A stretch of DNA of 64,000 nucleotides, taken from the NCBI GenBank assembly GCA_937942875.1, contig CALEBT010000013.1, positions 1 through 64,000 of the forward strand. Reading direction: 5' to 3'. Positions 1-625 of the stretch are shown here, piece by piece (positions within the stretch are counted from its first letter, which is position 1; every line of letters begins with the position of its first letter). The translations under genes and the position numbers were made by a program. Source of the DNA: an uncultured Ignavibacterium sp. (GTDB lineage: Bacteria; Bacteroidota; Ignavibacteria; Ignavibacteriales; Ignavibacteriaceae). The notes beneath the pieces are model-generated. The model saw only the letters and a program-made list of their open reading frames with translations, had not been told where the DNA came from and did no database searches.

Positions 1-309
1 GGTTGAGATGTCTTTGTTAATCTTACGGTCGCACGCCGTGAGCGTGCGTGGATTGAAACATTGTCTTTACTGTTTACTTAATCGCACCAATCTGGTCGCA
101 CGCCGTGAGCGTGCGTGGATTGAAACATAATAGAAAATTTAGAGTTAAAAGAGATACCAAGTCGCACGCCGTGAGCGTGCGTGGATTGAAACTTGACATC
201 AATGTCTGCGTTCCAGCTCGCAACCTCGTCGCACGCCGTGAGCGTGCGTGGATTGAAACAAATTTTTTGTTTACTTGCTCTAACTTACTTTGTGCCGCAC
301 TCCGTGTGC

Positions 310-329
310 CTGCCTTGTCAGCAGACAGG
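310..329. repeat. 20-bp imperfect palindrome CTGCCTTGTCAGCAGACAGG inserted in CRISPR repeat 5
   Basis: Identical 20-mer at 310-329 and 397-416. GCC-TGTC/GACA-GGC arms flank AGCA with one bulged T. It sits between the two halves of the CRISPR repeat. Confidence 0.9.
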
Positions 330-396
330 AGCGCGTGGATTGAAACTTGGCTTACTGAAGCCAGAGGCTTCGGCTACATTGTCGAACGCCGCGTGG

Positions 397-416
397 CTGC
401 CTTGTCAGCAGACAGG
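397..416. repeat. Second copy of the 20-bp palindrome, inserted in CRISPR repeat 6
   Basis: Exact match to 310-329, at the same position relative to the CRISPR repeat. Confidence 0.9.
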
Positions 417-511
417 CATGCGTTGATTGAAACACCTTTATTTTAAACGATAGGTTTCTATCATTTTTAGATATTGATTTTATCTTTATCTTGCTTTGTG
501 TTTTTTGAGAA

Positions 512-625
512 ATGATTATGGAATTTTTATTAGTTATATTATCAGTAATTATATCTTATATGATTGCAACCAGATTATTTAAACCCGGTAACCCCGATCC
601 ATTTCGCAACTATGATAACGACTAA
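512..625 (+). CDS. Candidate small single-pass membrane protein, 37 aa (MIMEFLLVILSVIISYMIATRLFKPGNPDPFRNYDND)
   Basis: ATG ORF below the ORF-track cutoff. Hydrophobic N-terminal helix then a polar tail; purine-rich GAGAA just upstream. Confidence 0.4.
   Translation: MIMEFLLVILSVIISYMIATRLFKPGNPDPFRNYDND

Follow-up and report, generated by a model that had tools for sequence, protein, structure and literature searches.

A dispersed REP-like palindrome nested in the two terminal repeats of a type I-C-like CRISPR array from an uncultured Ignavibacterium

Introduction

The window analysed here, a 64,000-nt stretch of DNA from an uncultured Ignavibacterium sp. (C13:1-64000), starts inside a CRISPR array whose leader side is cut off by the contig start. 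The two repeats at the trailer end share a palindrome nested in the hairpin of the repeat itself, which raises the question of what this palindrome is and how adjacent repeats came to hold the same one.

Small palindromic elements are known from other settings. Elhai et al. reportedly described, in 2008, small dispersed repeats of 21-27 bp in cyanobacteria, and we know of no insertion of these repeats into CRISPR. REPs, GTAG- and CGTC-tagged families among them, have been described as nested in palindromes, and some families are found regularly inside other palindromes (A. variabilis GTAG-15, T. roseum GTAG-23 and H. neapolitanus CGTC-1) (PMC3733652). REPINs mobilised by RAYT transposases have likewise been documented (PMC3116915).

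Results

The canonical repeat of the array, GTCGCACGCCGTGAGCGTGCGTGGATTGAAAC, is present in four identical copies (Table 1). Its length of 32 bp, its stem-loop and its 3' end (ATTGAAAC) are type I-C features, and a near-identical repeat of a sister species (G004), GTCGCACGCCCTGTGCGTGCGTGGATTGAAAC, lies directly downstream of a Cas5c-Cas8c-Cas7-Cas4-Cas1-Cas2 operon. Cas8c was not found in the window's own 71%-complete genome, in which the contig ends inside the array. An Rfam search returned only CRISPR-DR9 matches, weak and sub-threshold. In another sister species (G001), cas8c is distributed over two contigs (G001:C7:373-1809 and G001:C177:5-310) and is possibly interrupted; a Y1_Tnp gene lies about 1.2 kb away from one of the pieces.

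The last two repeats, R5 and R6, measure 53 bp as opposed to 32 bp, and the spacers (35, 34, 35, 34 and 34 nt, in order) keep their normal length of 34 nt beside them, both as the first-pass annotation had described. R5 and R6 each contain the 20-mer CTGCCTTGTCAGCAGACAGG in a 16 + 20-mer + 17 layout. Within the window this 20-mer occurs at positions 310 and 397 only, where shuffled sequences lead one to expect none, and no match at up to three mismatches was found elsewhere in the 2.02-Mb MAG (71% complete). The spacer between the two long repeats folds as a hairpin (z -2.3), a fold absent from the neighbouring spacer.

Table 1. Features of the array end in the window
Feature	Position	Strand	Remarks
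Intact type I-C-like CRISPR repeats (four)	28-59, 95-126, 161-192, 228-259 (28..259)	+	32 bp, identical
R5, 53-bp repeat with nested palindrome	294..346	+	repeat stem damaged: G8T, T18C
21-bp palindromic insert of R5	310..330	+	20-mer 310-329 + A330; boundary from comparison with G005:C85:1-53
34-nt spacer between R5 and R6	347..380	+	hairpin GAAGCC AGA GGCTTC
R6, 53-bp terminal repeat with nested palindrome	381..433	+	repeat stem damaged: C5A, C16G, G17A
21-bp palindromic insert of R6	397..417	+	20-mer 397-416 + C417
35-aa ORF MEFLLVILSVIISYMIATRLFKPGNPDPFRNYDND flanking the trailer	518..625	+	71% identity to an ORF past the 53-bp repeat in G005

This description is confirmed, and comparison with a sister species refines it. 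A genus-wide DNA search located the same 53-bp terminal repeat, intact, at G005:C85:1-53 in a second uncultured Ignavibacterium sp. (contig CALHAB010000085.1, also labelled L107 and L025). It reads GTCGCACGCTGTGTGC-CTGCCTTGTCGGCAGACAGGC-GTGCGTGGATTGAAAT, and this clean 16+21+16 split sets the true length of the insert at 21 bp. The split first proposed for R5 and R6 is correct as a reading of the letters, but the true insert includes one further base; nor does it sit at the exact centre of the repeat palindrome, as had been thought, but at the junction of the loop and the 3' arm, after base 15 or 16. In G005 the small trailer ORF lies 1.2 kb past the long repeat, with 1.1 kb of unrelated sequence intervening, and synteny is lost beyond the ORF. 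The identity between the two small ORFs nevertheless indicates orthology of the array ends. Since G005 shares both the 53-bp repeat and this array end, the insertion is probably older than the split of the two Ignavibacterium species.

Among 164 genomes of the order, type I-C repeats with a loop insert were found in the window and in G005 only. A scan of 84,980 species for the palindrome beside GATTGAAA gave 44 matches, among which G005 alone lies in a CRISPR repeat; several others are tRNA-Leu or other repeats. The G005 interval between terminal repeat and small ORF (L025:54-1240) includes a 237-aa minus-strand ORF with no function assigned, and a further palindrome copy is seen at about L025 326-345.

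The palindrome has the general form CCTGYCT..RRCAGG (consensus CCTGCCTTGTCGGCAGACAGG, reverse CCTGTCTGCCGACAAGGCAGG), with a one-base-shorter form also seen, and it is dispersed among related genomes. With at most two mismatches it is present in 28 of 80 family genomes in more than 100 copies, reaching 17 to 30 in some of them (G040, G066), and the reversed-pattern control gave zero; exact matches to the 20-bp form number 51, spread over 21 of the 396 genomes of the phylum, again against a control of zero. Sharp pairs of empty and filled sites, as expected of a mobile insertion, exist both for CRISPR repeats (32 versus 53 bp) and for tRNA-Leu (with and without the 20-mer). The insert falls within the 20-40 bp of a palindromic REP unit, and the related genomes support its assignment as a copy of a dispersed REP-like palindrome. 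The earlier suggestion of such an element is thus borne out by the relatives, although in the window's own 71%-complete MAG no copy was found outside the array. Five viral-contig matches from an exact 17-mer scan are single-copy and lie outside CRISPR repeats and palindromes; we regard them as coincidental.

Where do the copies land? Many are located inside existing inverted repeats, among them other REPs (GTCATCCTGAA^CTTGTTTCAGGATC), a RAYT gene's REP and the palindrome's own copies. Flank-to-flank complementarity of 58 family copies exceeds that of permuted flank pairings (z=4.5), with stems of at least 6 in 15.5% of the observed pairs versus 2.2% of the permuted ones, and forcing the stem to begin at the element edge gives z=5.1 (78 copies). 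An independent phylum-wide set of 23 copies gives z=3.5, but in this set stems that start elsewhere than at the edge show the same enrichment (z=3.4). Because of this equal off-edge enrichment, it is safe to say that the palindrome lands inside hairpins more than permuted flanks allow, and landing exactly at the hairpin junction is only suggested. The CRISPR site agrees with this pattern: a 6-bp stem, CGCACG/CGTGCG, starts exactly at the element edge. About 85% of the dispersed copies are outside any obvious hairpin, so that hairpin targeting is a tendency and not a rule.

A further target is tRNA-Leu. The complete genome G003 contains nine tandem tRNA-Leu 5' halves, each reading GGTAGA^CCTGTCTGCCGACAGGCAGG^CGCGC, which adjoin an intact tRNA-Leu, the empty site. 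Taken together with the enrichment in inverted repeats, these D-loop insertions make the CRISPR hairpin one more hairpin target. Truncated tRNA-Leu copies of Flavobacteriia carry the palindrome at the identical D-loop nucleotide. The G003 cluster (L075:6636-7405, G003:C1:842635-843404) has a period of about 77 bp, with the palindrome in the D-loop, and one intact tRNA-Leu (CAA) comes after it. The nine copies had at first suggested a CRISPR array with long repeats but proved to be tandem truncated tRNA-Leu.

A small GIY-YIG ORF recurs together with a truncated, palindrome-bearing tRNA-Leu 5' half and an intact tRNA-Leu in Flavobacteriia and Ignavibacterium (L118:454-839, L120, L104, L100, L096, L090, L058:1494-1915 and L076:4870-5175); L090 ends before any intact tRNA could appear. 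PF01541 was confirmed for the 81-aa ORFs of L118 and L058, the other loci being read by eye. The arrangement looks as if a GIY-YIG element targeted tRNA-Leu and left a broken 5' copy behind.

Y1_Tnp (PF01797) genes are present in sister species, and the window's genome gave no PF01797 match. Two RAYT genes of G066 flanked by palindrome copies had made a RAYT the candidate mobiliser. This candidacy is weakened by the sampled PF01797 loci, in which copies lie near 2 of 40 and the remaining 38 are free of close copies. It is further weakened by one of these two, a G066 locus (L182:1255-2065, G066:C123), where the Y1_Tnp gene has its own REP, of CCTCTACGAGG type and a different palindrome, to its left and right; on either side, one copy of this REP holds the dispersed palindrome nested inside. 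A GTAG or CGTC end tag is absent, and the flanks of 58 copies contain no constant tag.

Discussion

Taking these results together, we consider it likely that one ancestral insertion into the type I-C repeat hairpin survived at the trailer, was copied locally and has since decayed. The palindrome would have inserted once at the junction of the loop and the 3' stem (GTGTG^CGTGCG), in an ancestor common to two or more Ignavibacterium species, the site being chosen through the element's tendency toward hairpins such as tRNA D-loops, other REPs and its own copies. It would have persisted at the trailer end, among old repeats that are no longer copied. A second, adjacent repeat would then have gained the insert in the window's genome, a duplication or conversion inside the array being the likeliest route, and both copies would now be decaying with broken repeat stems, while the leader-side repeats stay canonical. 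The folds are in keeping with this last step: the G005 53-mer folds with a 7-bp repeat stem intact around the element, whereas R5 and R6 do not fold so and each have broken stem pairs. Given these broken pairs, crRNA function at R5 and R6 has probably been lost, and both repeats have the look of decaying passengers. The data show the dispersed family, the sharp filled and empty sites, the G005 copy and the enrichment in inverted repeats; that the insertion arose once and was then copied, and that crRNA function was lost, we infer. The copying step meets an objection, in that array copying runs from the leader end, yet the two trailer repeats are filled and the four younger ones empty. Moreover, G005 is the one further CRISPR case found overall.

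The first-pass annotation had offered two routes to this structure, one insertion that was duplicated before the halves decayed or an element that hit the same site twice. The former is favoured because R5 and R6 share a minority A variant (CAGCAG) at a position where the family mostly has G, and because G005 has the matching terminal repeat. The latter, two or even three independent insertions at a hot site with all repeats equal targets and the oldest exposed longest, is the most serious competitor, although we judge it clearly the less probable. It could still apply because tRNA-Leu D-loops were struck at the identical nucleotide across phyla, in Ignavibacteria and Flavobacteriia; the same REP loops have also been struck repeatedly, and 8 of the 32 flank sites are not alike in R5 and R6. 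Independent hits do not readily explain, in addition to the shared A, why the two inserts have the same orientation and length, both in the 21-bp TT form, why only adjacent terminal repeats are affected and why the assembled genome contains no source copy.

Alternatively, the palindrome could have inserted once in a leader-proximal repeat and been multiplied by spacer acquisition into an ancestral array rich in 53-bp repeats, with 32-bp repeats later restored on the leader side through recombination or array loss. We regard this as improbable. Two adjacent repeats are filled in the window, the G005 repeat keeps an intact stem and the G005 contig begins exactly one base ahead of its 53-bp repeat, which hints at more than one occurrence in that array and is expected if the repeat is multi-copy there. 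On the other hand, contig ends can arise otherwise, the G005 assembly contains no second 53-bp repeat and the younger repeats of the window, being 32 bp long and identical, require a precise loss. A broader version is somewhat more doubtful still: a hairpin-seeking micro-element of 20-21 bp might use CRISPR repeats, tRNA D-loops and REPs as safe sites and be multiplied by the CRISPR adaptation machinery whenever it sits in a copied repeat.

Could selection have kept the insert, say because it makes the trailer repeat act like a terminator or alters processing? Both species have kept the insert at the end of the array, and the 20-mer is identical in R5 and R6 while the flanking halves have diverged, as first noted; counted this way, differences amount to 9/33 in the flanks versus 0/20 in the 20-mer (Fisher p=0.010). 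With the 21-bp boundary the contrast weakens to 8/32 versus 1/21 (p=0.07), and pooling with G005 gives 10/96 versus 2/63 (p=0.13). The contrast alone demands neither selection nor recent re-insertion, the repeat stems of R5 and R6 are broken, and selection on the insert, raised at first pass, is left unsupported and in our view very unlikely. An assembly artefact, conceivable in that the window begins at a contig end, inside a repeat array, and the MAG is 71% complete, is largely refuted and hardly worth entertaining, because a separate MAG of another species (G005) holds the same arrangement; R5 and R6 also differ at eight flank sites and their spacers are distinct.

How does the element relate to known systems? 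It resembles REPs as a dispersed palindrome of 20-40 bp with interspecific families and nesting in palindromes, and differs from them in lacking a GTAG/CGTC tag and a consistent RAYT neighbour and in counting a CRISPR repeat and tRNA D-loops among its targets (PMC3733652). As with REPINs, it is non-autonomous palindromic mobile DNA with Y1_Tnp (PF01797) in sister genomes; unlike them, it is a single palindrome and not a REP doublet, in a genome with no PF01797 match (PMC3116915). It is very small, hairpin-forming, apparently mobile and sharply bounded, as are the cyanobacterial small dispersed repeats, from which it differs in lineage and sequence. Degenerate terminal CRISPR repeats also carry substitutions at the trailer end, but R5 and R6 add a defined 21-bp mobile palindrome that a sister species has too. 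Neither the palindrome sequence nor any report of insertions in CRISPR repeats was found in the literature searched, which covers few subscription journals. A REP inside a palindrome is thus known, and a REP inside a CRISPR repeat appears to be unreported in that literature.

We read the finding as a dispersed palindrome of REP-like kind that bears no tag, has no confirmed transposase and lies inside a CRISPR repeat. Although CRISPR repeats are commonly taken to be fixed, they serve as targets of tiny palindromes that nest in hairpins, and such nesting can yield long 'terminal repeats', which array-finding programs may overlook. Lastly, the clean filled and empty sites make the target rule of the palindrome, insertion inside existing hairpins, directly testable.
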